From Alteromonas mediterranea DE (GTDB lineage Bacteria > Pseudomonadota > Gammaproteobacteria > Enterobacterales > Alteromonadaceae): a stretch of 64,000 nt of DNA. Below the pieces are notes generated by a model. The model was not told the DNA's origin. It made no database searches and was given only the letters and a program-made list of their open reading frames with translations. Both the position numbers and the translations under genes were made by a program. This document shows positions 22,588 to 43,966 of this stretch, piece by piece (positions within the stretch are counted from its first letter, which is position 1; each line of letters begins with the position of its first letter). The stretch spans positions 1,297,791 through 1,361,790 of the forward strand of contig NC_011138.3 in assembly GCF_000020585.3 (NCBI RefSeq). The letters run 5' to 3'.

Positions 22588-23226
22588 ATGAACCAAAAGT
22601 TCAAAAAACTGGTTGTTTTTTTATCAACGCTCATCGTTCTTTTTCCACTGCTTATCGCTGGGTGTGCAACAACGCCTCCTAAAGACATCAGTAATTTGTG
22701 CGAAATTTTCTACGAAAAGGACGATTGGTATGATGCAGCGGCTGATGCCAGAGACAAATGGGGTGTGCCTATCCATGTTCCTATGGCCATGATGTATCAG
22801 GAAAGTTCGTTTCGACACGATGCGCTTCCCCCACGTGATTATGTTTTCTTTGGGTTAATTCCGTGGGGACGAGTCAGTTCAGCCTATGGGTATTCTCAAG
22901 CTAAAACGCCTACATGGGCAGACTATATGAGAGAAACGGATAACAGTGGCGCAGATAGAGATGACTTCGAAGACGCTATCGACTTCATGGGCTGGTTTAT
23001 CTACAAGTCTCAAAAAGTGAACGGCATTTCAAAATGGGACGCGTATGCCCAATACTTGAATTATCACGAAGGGTGGGGCGGCTATAAGCGAAGAAGTTAC
23101 GACAGAAAGCCTTGGCTCAAAAAAGTGGCGTCAAAAGTAAAAGCACGTTCATTGCGATACGCCACTCAGCTTAAGACCTGCGAAGAAGACCTCCAGAAAG
23201 GGTGGTTTATGAAGCTGTTTAGTTAA
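22588..23226 (+). CDS. SLT-like (lysozyme-fold) lipoprotein
   Basis: A 212-residue lipoprotein (hydrophobic N-terminus, lipobox IAGC with Cys near residue 26). The body resembles the soluble-lytic-transglycosylase fold: VPMAMMYQESSFRHDA supplies the probable catalytic glutamate (YQESSF), AYGYSQAKTPTWADYM the next motif, and AYAQYLNYHEGWGGYKRR the later tyrosine/asparagine helix. It would cleave peptidoglycan from the outer-membrane side. Lies downstream of gshA with a 67-bp gap; a plus-strand terminator follows. The function is inferred from fold motifs. Confidence 0.75.
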   Translation: MNQKFKKLVVFLSTLIVLFPLLIAGCATTPPKDISNLCEIFYEKDDWYDAAADARDKWGVPIHVPMAMMYQESSFRHDALPPRDYVFFGLIPWGRVSSAYGYSQAKTPTWADYMRETDNSGADRDDFEDAIDFMGWFIYKSQKVNGISKWDAYAQYLNYHEGWGGYKRRSYDRKPWLKKVASKVKARSLRYATQLKTCEEDLQKGWFMKLFS

Positions 23227-23264: not shown

Positions 23265-23288
23265 CGCGACTTCGAAGTCGCGTTTTTT
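23265..23288 (+). terminator. Intrinsic terminator after the SLT-like gene
   Basis: Perfect 18-bp self-complementary stem CGCGACTTCGAAGTCGCG followed by six T residues. Confidence 0.85.
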
Positions 23289-23357: not shown

Positions 23358-23437
23358 AAAAAATGGGGGATAGACGGGCGTCTATCCCCCAGCGACGCTA
23401 AGCCAAGACCGTTTTTTTAACTCACGTCGAACAGGCA
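23358..23437 (-). ncRNA. Candidate Fur-repressed small RNA (RyhB-like role)
   Basis: A predicted ~80-nt RNA on the minus strand in a gene-free gap. Seen directly: a promoter with -35 TTGCAA (23466-23471), 17-bp spacer and -10 TATCTT (23443-23448); a Fur-box-like sequence inside that promoter; and a terminator whose stem TGGGGGATAGACG / CGTCTATCCCCCA (23364-23376 and 23379-23391) is followed by six U. No reading frame with a ribosome-binding sequence lies in it. The predicted 5' half contains GAGUUAAAAAAACGGUCUUG, a single-stranded A-rich stretch with a seed complementary to the sodB start region. It does not contain the RyhB or PrrF core as I remember them. Existence and start site are inference. 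Confidence 0.65.
23364..23391 (-). terminator. Terminator of the candidate small RNA
   Basis: A 13-bp perfect inverted repeat (effective stem of 11 bp with a 6-nt loop), GC-rich at its base, followed on the minus strand by TTTTTT (23363-23358). There is no T-tract on the plus-strand side, so it works only for minus-strand transcripts. Confidence 0.85.
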
Positions 23438-23442
23438 TTTAC

Positions 23443-23471
23443 AAGATAGTGTAAATGAGAATGATTTGCAA
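23443..23471 (-). promoter_or_regulatory. Sigma-70 promoter of the candidate small RNA
   Basis: -35 TTGCAA at 23471-23466 and -10 TATCTT at 23448-23443, spacer exactly 17 bp; predicted start near 23437. Confidence 0.7.
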
Positions 23472-23472
23472 T
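23454..23472. promoter_or_regulatory. Fur-box-like operator overlapping the small-RNA promoter
   Basis: AATGAGAATGATT (23454-23466) matches 11 of 13 core positions of the E. coli Fur consensus AATGATAATCATT, followed by TGCAAT. The same flanks (GTA before, GC after) surround the Fur box of bfd in this window. It lies between -35 and -10, the classical repressing position. Confidence 0.65.
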
Positions 23473-23628: not shown

Positions 23629-24087
23629 ATGGTGAATAAAAAGTTTAGCGCGCATGGTGATGTCCATGCTCACTTTCTCCAAGAGAAGCGGATTCTTTCC
23701 ATCAGCCTTAGCGGGCCTTTTAATTTAGAGTTTATTCTTAAATATCAACGCGTAGTGGGTGCTGAGAGAGAAAAGATCCAAGTGCCTTCTTGGGCCAGCT
23801 TAGTTAACGTTCACGGCTTAGCCTTAGCGCCTATGGAAGCTACAGCAGATGCACAATTGATTGTGGATGAAGCCGTTGATTCAGGACTTGTTGCCACTGC
23901 GGTAGTACTTCATGAGACAGAAGGGCTCGCGTTACAGCAGAAGTTTTGGTCTAAAATTTACGACGCATCTACGCTACCTTTTCAATTCTTTAGCGATAGT
24001 TCAGCGGCATCAGACTGGTTAGTTGAGAAAATTGCTAGTGGTATGCAAAGGCACAACGTCTATCAAAGCAGGAATATTACTAGGTAG
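23629..24087 (+). CDS. Hypothetical protein, 152 aa
   Basis: I do not recognise this family. The ATG at 23629 (MVNKKFSAHG) is preferred over a TTG 12 codons earlier; the ribosome-binding sequence is weak. The protein has alternating beta-strand and helix character: a strand-rich start (ILSISLSGPFNLEFILKYQ), a central LVNVHGLALAPMEATADAQL, and a helix-strand end (FQFFSDSSAASDWLVEKI). This resembles the size and layout of STAS/SpoIIAA-like domains (single 120-residue alpha/beta), but I cannot show the diagnostic residues. It lies just past the candidate small RNA and 95 bp before another orphan of similar size. Confidence 0.6.
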   Translation: MVNKKFSAHGDVHAHFLQEKRILSISLSGPFNLEFILKYQRVVGAEREKIQVPSWASLVNVHGLALAPMEATADAQLIVDEAVDSGLVATAVVLHETEGLALQQKFWSKIYDASTLPFQFFSDSSAASDWLVEKIASGMQRHNVYQSRNITR

Positions 24088-24182: not shown

Positions 24183-24602
24183 ATGGTAGGAAGTCAGCAT
24201 CAGTACCGTTTTTTCAACGTCAATAATGTGCTATTTGATATACCCAGTAATGTATATGACGATAGAACAGTTGACGAATGGTTTGATGAGATTGTGAAAG
24301 AGGGAAGAAAGCGGGAGCGTTGGGTCATTTTCTCCATCCCCGACAAAAACCTTACAGTCACCCATACTGCTGCAAAGCAACTCTGCACTCGATTACCTTT
24401 TTTAAAATCTTATGGCTGCCTTGGCTTTTTGCTTCTAGCGACACACACCAACGCCAAAATTTTTCAACACAGTTTAAAAGCCACGCCTTCCAACTTTGAT
24501 ATGAAAGTTAGTGAATCGATGGAAACACTCTGTAGGTCTGCTGAGTTGATGTTAGGAAGCGAAAACGAACTGAATATTTTTAACCGATTCGGGACGCGAT
24601 AA
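24183..24602 (+). CDS. Hypothetical protein, 139 aa
   Basis: No family recognised. The start is firm: ACAGGAGGTAGCC directly precedes the ATG at 24183. The layout is like that of the preceding gene: a strand-rich start, a polar helix, a WVIFSIPDKNLTVTHTAAKQL segment comparable in position with the neighbour's WASLVNVHGLALAPMEATAD, then a hydrophobic strand (CLGFLLLA) and a C-terminal helix. The two may be distant paralogues of a STAS-like fold; this is inference from pattern only. No membrane segment or signal peptide. Confidence 0.65.
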   Translation: MVGSQHQYRFFNVNNVLFDIPSNVYDDRTVDEWFDEIVKEGRKRERWVIFSIPDKNLTVTHTAAKQLCTRLPFLKSYGCLGFLLLATHTNAKIFQHSLKATPSNFDMKVSESMETLCRSAELMLGSENELNIFNRFGTR

Positions 24603-24784: not shown

Positions 24785-24910
24785 ATGTTGTGGACTATGA
24801 TGAAAGACCCAGTGGTATGGGGCTCACTGCTAGGAATAGGCATTATCGTCGCGATGATGATGTATTACACTTATCTTTTTATGCACAACAGTGCTGATGA
24901 AGACAAATAA
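24785..24910 (+). CDS. 41-residue single-span membrane peptide
   Basis: A tiny protein: MLWTMMKDPVVWGS, then a hydrophobic span (about residues 13-33, with GIGIIVAMMMYYTY) and an acidic tail ending SADEDK. A strong ribosome-binding sequence, AAAGAGGAGACC, precedes the ATG. The pattern DPVVWGSLL followed by one membrane helix resembles DUF3149-type small proteins. It could equally be a small subunit-like peptide of a respiratory complex (as CydX or CcoQ are), an idea prompted only by the two FNR-like boxes upstream. No respiratory genes adjoin it. Function unknown. Confidence 0.7.
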   Translation: MLWTMMKDPVVWGSLLGIGIIVAMMMYYTYLFMHNSADEDK

Positions 24911-34238: not shown

Positions 34239-34820
34239 TTACGCAAAATTTTTGCTTGCGAATTCCCAGTTAACCAGTGCCCAGAAGTTTTCTAGGTACT
34301 TAGGACGCGCGTTACGGTAATCGATGTAATAAGCGTGTTCCCATAGATCAACAGTAAGTACTGGTGTTAGATCATCGCCAGAAATAGGCGTTTCAGCGTT
34401 GCTGGTATTAACGATGTCTAGGCTGCCGTCAGCAGTTTTAACTAGCCATGTCCAGCTTGAACCAAAGTTATTAACTGCTTTGTCGTTAAACGCAGCTTGG
34501 AAGTCTGCAAATGAGCCCCATTTCGCGTTAATTGCGTCAGCGAGTTCACCTGTAGGTTCGCCGCCGCCATTCGGGCTTAGGCAATTCCAGTAGAACGTGT
34601 GGTTCCACACTTGCGCTGCGTTGTTGAAAACACCGCCTTCAGAAGATTTGATGATTTCTTCTAGGCTTTTGTTTTCCATGTCAGTACCTTCAACTAGGCC
34701 GTTTAGCTTAGTTACATAAGTAGCGTGGTGCTTGCCGTAGTGATACTCAAGCGTTTCAGCAGAAATATGTGGTTCTAGTGCATTTTGTTCGTATGGTAAT
34801 GCTGGTAGTTCAAAAGCCAT
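34239..34820 (-). CDS. sodB: Iron superoxide dismutase
   Basis: A 193-residue Fe-SOD, the same length as E. coli SodB. Metal ligands are visible as His27 (EYHYGKHH), His in WNHTFYW near residue 74, and Asp/His in [13 protein letters not shown] near residue 157-161. The start [10 protein letters not shown] at 34820 follows GGAGA; an in-frame ATG four codons upstream lacks a site. It removes superoxide in the cytoplasm. The start region (34807-34842) is complementary to the candidate Fur-repressed RNA at 23358-23437. It is divergent from grxD; the promoters share a 348-bp gap. Confidence 0.96.
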
Positions 34821-35168
34821 GACGGTCTCCATGTTGGTTTAGTATTGTAATCTAAAGCACACTTATCTTCGCCTGTTCAATAAGTGCATATCAACCCTTG
34901 ATTGAATATACCGCTTTAGACGCTAAAGCATATCTTAAATGTGGGGATAAAGTTATATAACTCAATGACAAAAATGTGAATTTTTTTTCAAAACCTATTT
35001 TGTCTTGGTAAATAGCCATCCAATGTATTGGTAGATAGCGTTGCAGAGAATGAAAAGATCAATCCGCTGTTCGGTTATTAAATATAAATTTATGATACCC
35101 TTCGCCTTGATAAATCATTCATGCATTCCCATCTACTGGGAATACACTTTTGTGCTCAGAGGAATCAA
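34821..35168. other. Divergent promoter region sodB / grxD
   Basis: 348 bp, AT-rich. A possible minus-strand -10 TACAAT for sodB lies at 34844-34849, which would give a short leader beginning near the CUAAACCA block. AGAGGA at 35158-35163 is the grxD ribosome-binding sequence. No operator is clear. Confidence 0.45.
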
Positions 35169-43713: not shown

Positions 43714-43732
43714 GTAAATGATAATAATTGCT
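43714..43732. promoter_or_regulatory. Fur box upstream of bfd
   Basis: AATGATAATAATT (43717-43729) matches the E. coli Fur core AATGATAATCATT at 12 of 13 positions, framed by GTA and GCT. It is 23-41 bp before the bfd start on the minus strand, in a promoter position. Confidence 0.8.
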
Positions 43733-43966
43733 ATTCATTAATTTGGCAAGTAGATATTGGCAAATTTAATAAAGGGTAAATGATGAAAATCTGTGCTTAA
43801 AGTTTAGCGAATGAACCCCTATTGGTAGGATCAGTGAAAAAACACATTGTTTAATATTGTTATTTTAGTAATCGTACCTATCTCCCAAGCTAGCAATATC
43901 TATTTTAAGTGGTCGCGCAACGCAATCACTTCTATTATTACAATCCACATATAAATGGAGAGACTC

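Follow-up and report, generated by a model that had tools for sequence, protein, structure and literature searches.

The PrrF sRNAs of Pseudomonas have an iron-sparing role and form a tandem pair in P. aeruginosa. A Fur site lies directly upstream of PrrF1 and PrrF2 (PMC7377471). RyhB (RF00057) occurs in enteric bacteria, Vibrio and Shewanella; its targets are sodAB, fumA and sdhABCD in Escherichia coli and sodB, sdhC, gltB1 and fumA in V. cholerae (PMC5511505), and a review lists it for Shewanella oneidensis (PMC8891985). BrrF of Burkholderia is confined to one lineage. Under iron depletion, acnA, fumA, sdhA, sdhC and sodB showed a BrrF-dependent decrease; brrF itself lacks a Fur box immediately upstream, its expression is probably coupled to that of hemP, and it has been reported only from Burkholderiales (PMC7377471). 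NrrF of Neisseria, which represses sdhCDAB (PMC5586341), and HrrF of Pasteurellaceae are Fur-repressed sRNAs that are likewise each restricted to a single lineage.

We analysed a 64-kb window (the whole stretch of DNA under study) of the Alteromonas mediterranea DE genome. A locus on its minus strand is very probably the gene of a trans-acting, Fur-repressed iron-sparing sRNA of ~80 nt, with two seeds that would target the sdhC, acnB, AcnB-like, fumA and sodB mRNAs. It resembles RyhB in having a Fur-type site (recognised by motif only) over a stand-alone promoter, a short RNA and a terminator, and in its predicted iron-enzyme targets, here by complementarity only; however, its core and seeds are unlike those of RyhB, and the RyhB model does not match. 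The directly upstream Fur-type site is shared with PrrF1 and PrrF2, but there is one locus in the 4.48-Mb genome and no match to the PrrF model. BrrF, compared by description, is closest in predicted targets and in its confinement to one lineage; it differs in its promoter context, as described above, and the neighbours of the Alteromonas locus are SLT and DUF3149-like genes rather than an upstream hemP. NrrF and HrrF are similar as Fur-repressed, lineage-confined sRNAs; HrrF is set apart, by description, by its other targets (PMC4144887).

The window contained two Rfam matches above gathering score, both tRNAs. A comparison of the locus with the 4227 families of Rfam, admitting E values up to 10, gave no match to RyhB or PrrF, and none to NrrF, a model of which Rfam should include. 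The best weak match, tfoR (RF02100), scored 19.2 bits against a gathering score of 70; it and the other weak matches were rejected as chance. A RyhB model search of 118 relatives with the stricter filters, in which the E. coli control was positive, gave no match in the DE genome; nine relatives had matches above the cut-off, and each of the nine belongs to another family of the order. A weak RyhB match in one congener (G053; 34.3 of 55 bits) was read as terminator-like. Among the matches listed in the open-licence literature, a scope that leaves subscription journals mostly outside, there was no Alteromonas iron sRNA. The locus is best read as a new sRNA family working like RyhB, PrrF or BrrF, and it could have arisen either independently or as an unrecognisably changed RyhB. 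According to the sequence-only reading, the locus encodes an sRNA under Fur repression that either has no kinship with RyhB and PrrF or has diverged strongly from them; this proposal is supported by the conservation, compensatory changes and predicted target sites described below.

Promoter, fold and conservation of the locus

On the minus strand, a promoter with a Fur-type palindrome is followed by GCCTGTTCGACGTGAGTTAAAAAAACGGTCTTGGCTTAGCGTCGC, a 12-pair stem and a T6 tract ending at 23358 (Table 1). The -35 and -10 elements, the 17-bp spacer, the Fur-like site, the terminator and U6 were all where the sequence-only reading had placed them. From the spacing to the -10 element and the first conserved base, transcription would start near 23436-23438. 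The promoter is weak: with 8 of 12 consensus bases it fell below the cut-off of our promoter scan and is absent from its list. Main-form relatives have TTGCAA, TTGAAA or TTGCTA as the -35 element and the second clade, described below, has TTGATA; the -10 element varies among relatives (TATCTT, TACATT, TATATT and poorer ones).

Table 1. Positions in the window of the predicted sRNA gene, its neighbours and the predicted sodB target
Feature	Position	Strand	Basis and remarks
Predicted sRNA, about 80 nt	23358..23437	-	conserved in 57/58 congeners; fold z-scores -4.1, -4.6
Fur-type palindrome AATGAGAATGATTTGCAAT over promoter	23454..23472		sequence motif; 14/16 of Vibrio-type Fur consensus
-35 TTGCAA	23466..23471	-	sequence; 4/6 consensus bases
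-10 TATCTT, spacer to -35 of 17 bp	23443..23448	-	sequence; 4/6 consensus bases
Seed 1, unpaired 5' end GCCUGUU	23430..23436	-	invariant in 32 distinct main-form copies and 10 second-clade copies
Hairpin 1, seed 2 in its loop	23393..23429	-	covariation; stem swapped yet paired in second clade
Seed 2, loop ACGGUCUUGG	23403..23412	-	ACGGUCUU invariant in both alignments
Terminator stem-loop, 12 pairs, strong	23364..23391	-	terminator scan; 10/10 modelled stem pairs change on both sides among copies
Terminator U6 tract	23358..23363	-	sequence
SLT-type transglycosylase gene, convergent neighbour (context only)	22588..23226	+	Pfam SLT_4, E 9e-79
Two genes between sRNA and DUF3149-like gene	23629..24087, 24183..24602	+	no Pfam match
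41-aa DUF3149-like membrane protein gene, usual divergent neighbour (context only)	24785..24910	+	Pfam DUF3149, 19.3 vs 23.2 bits, below cut-off
sodB, iron superoxide dismutase, predicted target	34239..34820	-	Pfam Sod_Fe_N and Sod_Fe_C; closest solved chains are Superoxide dismutase [Fe]
AACAGGC in sodB leader, seed 1 complement	34871..34877	-	within GAACAGGC at 34878-34871
GAGACCGU overlapping sodB ribosome-binding site, seed 2 complement with one G-U	34822..34829	-	

The Fur consensus TGATAATNATTATCA, allowing up to three mismatches, occurred three times in the window, against 3.97 expected. By the Vibrio-type consensus AATGANAATNATTNTCATT, the sRNA site and a site at 43717-43735, belonging to the bfd gene (Pfam Fer2_BFD match), both scored 14 of 16 and no other site in the window reached 14. 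The two sites also have the flank TCATTTACA in common, which bears out an earlier remark on their shared flanking bases. Over 1.26 Mb, the Vibrio-type scan gave six sites at 14 or above (1.6 in block shuffles) and 13 sites at exactly 13 (11.4 in block shuffles). The promoter and the Fur box were rejected as significant from the window alone, neither being above chance there; the locus rises above chance because 57 of 58 congeners conserve it at this position. A profile derived from the Fur-type sites of the sRNA copies was too narrow for finding other Fur sites, and a scan with an E. coli-type 19-mer gave 315 mostly chance-looking matches; both were set aside.

A palindrome of this kind was present in all 46 main-form copies listed, the DE copy included. 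Among the 45 from congeners, 42 fit one expression, two are inverted and one deviates. The inverted form, TTGCAAATGAGAATGATTTGCAA, lies over the same promoter in L037 and L041 (genomes G005 and G046). Upstream of the sRNA in L016, L018-L022 and L024-L027 we also saw TTGATCNNNATCAA, which we take to be an FNR/CRP-like site.

The predicted sRNA folded better than 200 of 200 shuffles (z-scores in Table 1). RNAalifold returned two hairpins, and 14 of their 20 pairs had compensatory changes. In a 19-pair structure, 97.3% of the alignment cells were paired and the covariation score was 0.519. Shuffling the 3' letters gave 0.272, and none of 500 shuffles equalled the observed score, although this control may be inflated by the relatedness of the copies. 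Sliding the structure gave 0.083-0.144; this second control retains relatedness, but it is biased towards any structure that, like this one, was obtained from the alignment being tested. In the 46 main-form copies the T run after the last stem was at least five long in 41, four in four and three in one (L034).

Copies of the sRNA that resemble the DE copy in promoter, box, core and terminator were found in 57 of 58 Alteromonas congeners: 45 by DNA search of 146 genomes with scripted extraction, 11 by the covariance model and one (G022) by reading its SLT locus. Loss of the promoter, box and terminator in close relatives had been named beforehand as the result that would count against an sRNA; instead, all three were kept in these 57. 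The covariance model was built from 32 distinct copies and run on 25 genomes, including 13 congeners not yet positive, 11 of which it added. In the remaining congener, G006, no sRNA lies beside the SLT gene and the model found none either. Distant absences are not absolute, because the first-look filter of the model search missed G022.

In a model search of 295 family genomes, congeners included, the matches outside the genus all had E values of 2e-6 or worse. Loci were available for 15 of these and for three such matches from the 25-genome run; the 18 had at most 10 of 16 Fur bases upstream and both constant stretches in none, and they were rejected as copies. The core pattern GCCTGTT...ACGGTCTTGG occurred in 29 of 32 genus genomes (DE included), whereas only two of the 363 remaining family genomes had it and a reversed control pattern gave four matches; of the two non-genus matches, the one that was read (L433) had no Fur box. 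Named genomes accounted for 44 pattern matches; 31 of these had a Fur-type site upstream, all in Alteromonas, Salinimonas, Aestuariibacter or Alteromonadaceae. DNA-search matches in G048, G083, G093 and G145 spanned the promoter/Fur-type stretch only and were discarded; G048 carries the sRNA elsewhere. By these comparisons the sRNA gene is kept across the genus Alteromonas, and no genome beyond this genus and its nearest relatives was seen to carry it.

The strongest structural evidence for an sRNA in these alignments comes from a second clade, in which the first stem has been replaced. It is formed by GGGTATCTG and CAGATACCC, or by GGGTTTCCG and CGGAATCCC with one mismatch, and has little in common with the main-form stem (CGACGTTGG/...AGCGTCG), yet the place of pairing is identical. 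Despite the swapped stem, the 5' GCCTGTT and the loop ACGGTCTTGG are unchanged. The canonical 7-1-7 Fur box TGATAATNATTATCA is present in 12 of 12 second-clade copies, perfect in six and with one change in six (13 or 14 of 14).

Complementarity to the leaders of iron-enzyme genes

The two unpaired stretches of the predicted RNA are nearly free of change (Table 1); seed 2 has one G -> A in 2 of 32 alignment rows (L026 and L042) and also in L025 and L027. The complement of seed 1, AACAGGC, occurs in the sdhC and sodB leaders, and that of seed 2 in the leaders of acnB, the AcnB-like gene, fumA and sodB. The acnB leader was met unchosen, through an exact CCAAGACCGT in several congeners, and the 941-aa AcnB-like gene came with the acnB search. 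We chose sdhC, fumA and sodB as classic RyhB targets, although sodB surfaced in an unbiased scan of 1059 leaders ahead of its own search. The sample of targets comprised 27% of the DE genome plus the chosen families.

In the predicted pairing with sdhC, the leader ...AAACAGGCAUACAUU-GUG binds AUGCCUGUU over the ribosome-binding site. The DE acnB leader has ACAAGACCGUUU, beginning 48 nt upstream, and the DE fumA leader has AGCUAAGACC; GGAGACCGUC stands directly before the sodB ATG at 34820.

These words are largely specific to the genus. AACAGGC was present in 18 of 18 sdhC leaders in the genus vs 0 of 5 outside, and AAGACCG in 11 of 13 vs 0 of 6 acnB leaders and 4 of 4 vs 0 of 1 AcnB-like leaders (the AcnB-like genes of four more congeners are excluded from these counts). 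For fumA, AAGACC was present in 9 of 17 genus leaders vs 0 of 5 outside. The sodB leaders had AACAGGC in 8 of 18 vs 0 of 8, and RAGACCG anywhere in 10 of 18 vs 0 of 8. Within the genus, 8 of 17 fumA leaders lacked AAGACC, 2 of 13 acnB leaders lacked AAGACCG and 4 of 18 sodB leaders (G002, G006, G011 and G015) had neither seed word. AAGACC in the early codons of sdhC was not counted as evidence, because it is kept outside the genus as well (5 of 5) and is dictated by the protein sequence. Leaders whose start was not placed by pattern were dropped (acnB, 5 of 24; AcnB-like, 1 of 6; sdhC, 3 of 26; fumA, 6 of 28); all 26 sodB leaders were placed, a G002 paralogue, L356, L357 and L359 having been left out beforehand.

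Three observations on single genomes may be added. In G006, the acnB, sodB and fumA leaders are without exact seed words and the sdhC leader retains AACAGGC (L388, L210, L248, L340 and L373). DE has two Aconitase_B_N genes (G000:C1:842336 and 848371), and the leader of the 941-aa form has AAGACCG twice. In G001, G005, G007 and G017, only the 941-aa form of Aconitase_B_N was found.

Over 70 genus leaders, the seeds paired with a mean energy of -21.9 kcal/mol vs -14.9 (sd 0.95) for shuffled seeds, none of 200 being as good. Over 25 leaders outside the genus there was no excess (-15.1 vs -14.4 shuffled; 22 of 100 as good). Control leaders from the genus gave 7 of 100 shuffles as good for both seeds at 45 SLT leaders, with a mild excess for seed 1 alone (3 of 100), and 25 of 100 at 48 DUF3149-like leaders. 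Among 1059 DE leaders, sdhC ranked first for both seeds together in the interval -60 to +40 and second in -100 to +40. The five targets averaged -28.6 vs -21.3 for the 1059 leaders, a value that random sets of five reached at a frequency of 1.5e-5, with the reservation that sdhC and sodB are part of the background and that the five were picked by function. DE fumA did not stand out when the two seeds were combined (percentile 0.30), and the loop by itself gave a percentile of 0.047. The seed 7-mers were weak taken by themselves: AACAGGC was found in the leaders of 10 genes vs 3.4 for permuted 7-mers (3 of the 10 being copies of one gene resembling transposase), and AAGACCG in 3 vs 5.0.

A real Fur-controlled sRNA might have its main targets elsewhere, for example among membrane or uptake genes, the enzyme-leader matches being minor. 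The targets of HrrF are modABC, asnA, asnC and nrdB (PMC4144887), and our unbiased leader scan also gave high ranks to non-iron genes. We nevertheless regard this as unlikely, since acnB, sdhC, fumA and sodB, four of four families examined, have seed words in the genus, whereas the leaders examined from outside it have none, except for the sdhC match fixed by its codons and an AAGACC in one sodB leader.

Further top matches to seed 1 fell in the start regions of L291:10060-10578, L305:5691-6845 and L322:14248-15942, which are candidate extra targets; we take them to encode a cytochrome c'-like protein, an iron-type alcohol dehydrogenase and a PhoD-like phosphatase, respectively. The exact 10-mer CCAAGACCGT also occurs within the coding sequences of genes presumed to be prs-, ahpF- and sucA-like, where it was rejected as a codon coincidence. 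Another exact copy, 5' of a gene that we assume to be sufB, lies within the palindrome AAATTACC...GGTAATTT. This palindrome with the seed-2 complement, AAATTACCAAGACCGTGGGGTAATTT, stands 75-82 nt before sufB in L179, L188 and L196; instead of pairing with the sRNA, it may serve as a protein operator, possibly for a regulator of Fe-S metabolism or assembly.

Neighbouring genes and other readings of the locus

The SLT gene lay within 900 bp of the sRNA in 48 of 58 loci rows and the gene at 23629 in 11 of 58 (the rows represent 57 genomes, G048 twice). Because both neighbours vary while the sRNA stays, the sRNA is independent of them. The genes 23629-24087 and 24183-24602 look like an insertion in a subclade, since the first was found in only 11 of the rows.

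The Fur box could instead serve a divergent + strand gene (23629 in the window or, in relatives, the DUF3149-like gene), the minus-strand hairpins then being upstream sequence of that gene or the terminator of the SLT gene. The distances would allow it: a + strand gene starts ~157 bp from the Fur site, and in many congeners the divergent DUF3149-like gene is some 150-310 bp away. This reading is very unlikely, however, as in the listed copies it is the minus-strand promoter that the box overlies, conservation is highest between promoter and terminator, where the changes covary as in an RNA, and the varying neighbours noted above do not carry the sRNA with them. As for the SLT gene, it has a palindrome of its own (23265-23282) followed by T6 on the + strand, whereas the T tract of the sRNA stem is on the minus strand.

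That the locus is a small protein gene and not a regulatory RNA is hardly credible: an ATG overlaps the first base of the conserved GCCTGTT in 37 of 58 rows and opens a short frame (MPVRRELKK... in one group), but the other rows have different codons there (10 CTG, 7 TTG, 2 GTG, 1 AAG and 1 TCG), the frames range from 3 codons to at least 40, an ATG at this position leaves almost no leader for a ribosome-binding site, and the changes track base pairing.

Proposed role in iron sparing

The iron-sparing sRNA would work as follows. When iron is plentiful, Fe-Fur would cover the -35/-10 region and the sRNA gene would be off. When iron is scarce, transcription would begin near 23437 and end at the terminator. 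Seed 1 (GCCUGUU) would then pair over or upstream of ribosome-binding sites, in the sdhC start region and the sodB leader, and the seed 2 loop ACGGUCUUGG in the acnB, AcnB-like and fumA leaders and at the sodB start. Pairing would make these iron-enzyme mRNAs less stable or less well translated, which would save iron; the acnB sites, far upstream in the leader, might act through mRNA stability or a standby site. The RNA would presumably need Hfq; a word pattern for hfq gave no match among 1059 sampled DE genes.

In A. macleodii under iron limitation, transcripts for the majority of the citric-acid-cycle enzymes and for bacterioferritin went down, and the iron-free fumarase C was up 20-fold (PMC7190382). 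The proposed mechanism fits the portion of this published transcriptome cited here. In that portion, the genes tallied are coding genes, no sRNA is given an iron-sparing role, and the one passage on 'small RNA' concerns CsrA (PMC7190382).

Alteromonas may have lost RyhB, or never had it, and have independently evolved an iron-sparing RNA of its own, modular in construction, with two fixed seeds and a replaceable stem, the sites in sdhC, acnB, the AcnB-like gene, fumA and sodB being gained only in this genus; we consider the chances of this evenly balanced. If it is true, the co-evolution of an sRNA and its regulon could be watched down to single genomes that lost a site, some leaders having two. 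Alteromonas is an abundant marine heterotroph linking iron and carbon cycling, and the sRNA is a concrete candidate regulator for the drop in citric-acid-cycle and bacterioferritin transcripts, for which the cited part of the A. macleodii study names no regulator (PMC7190382). It would add another case, apparently of separate origin, in which this regulatory solution was reached, and its copies and their predicted sites would provide a genus-wide data set on the joint evolution of an sRNA and its target sites.
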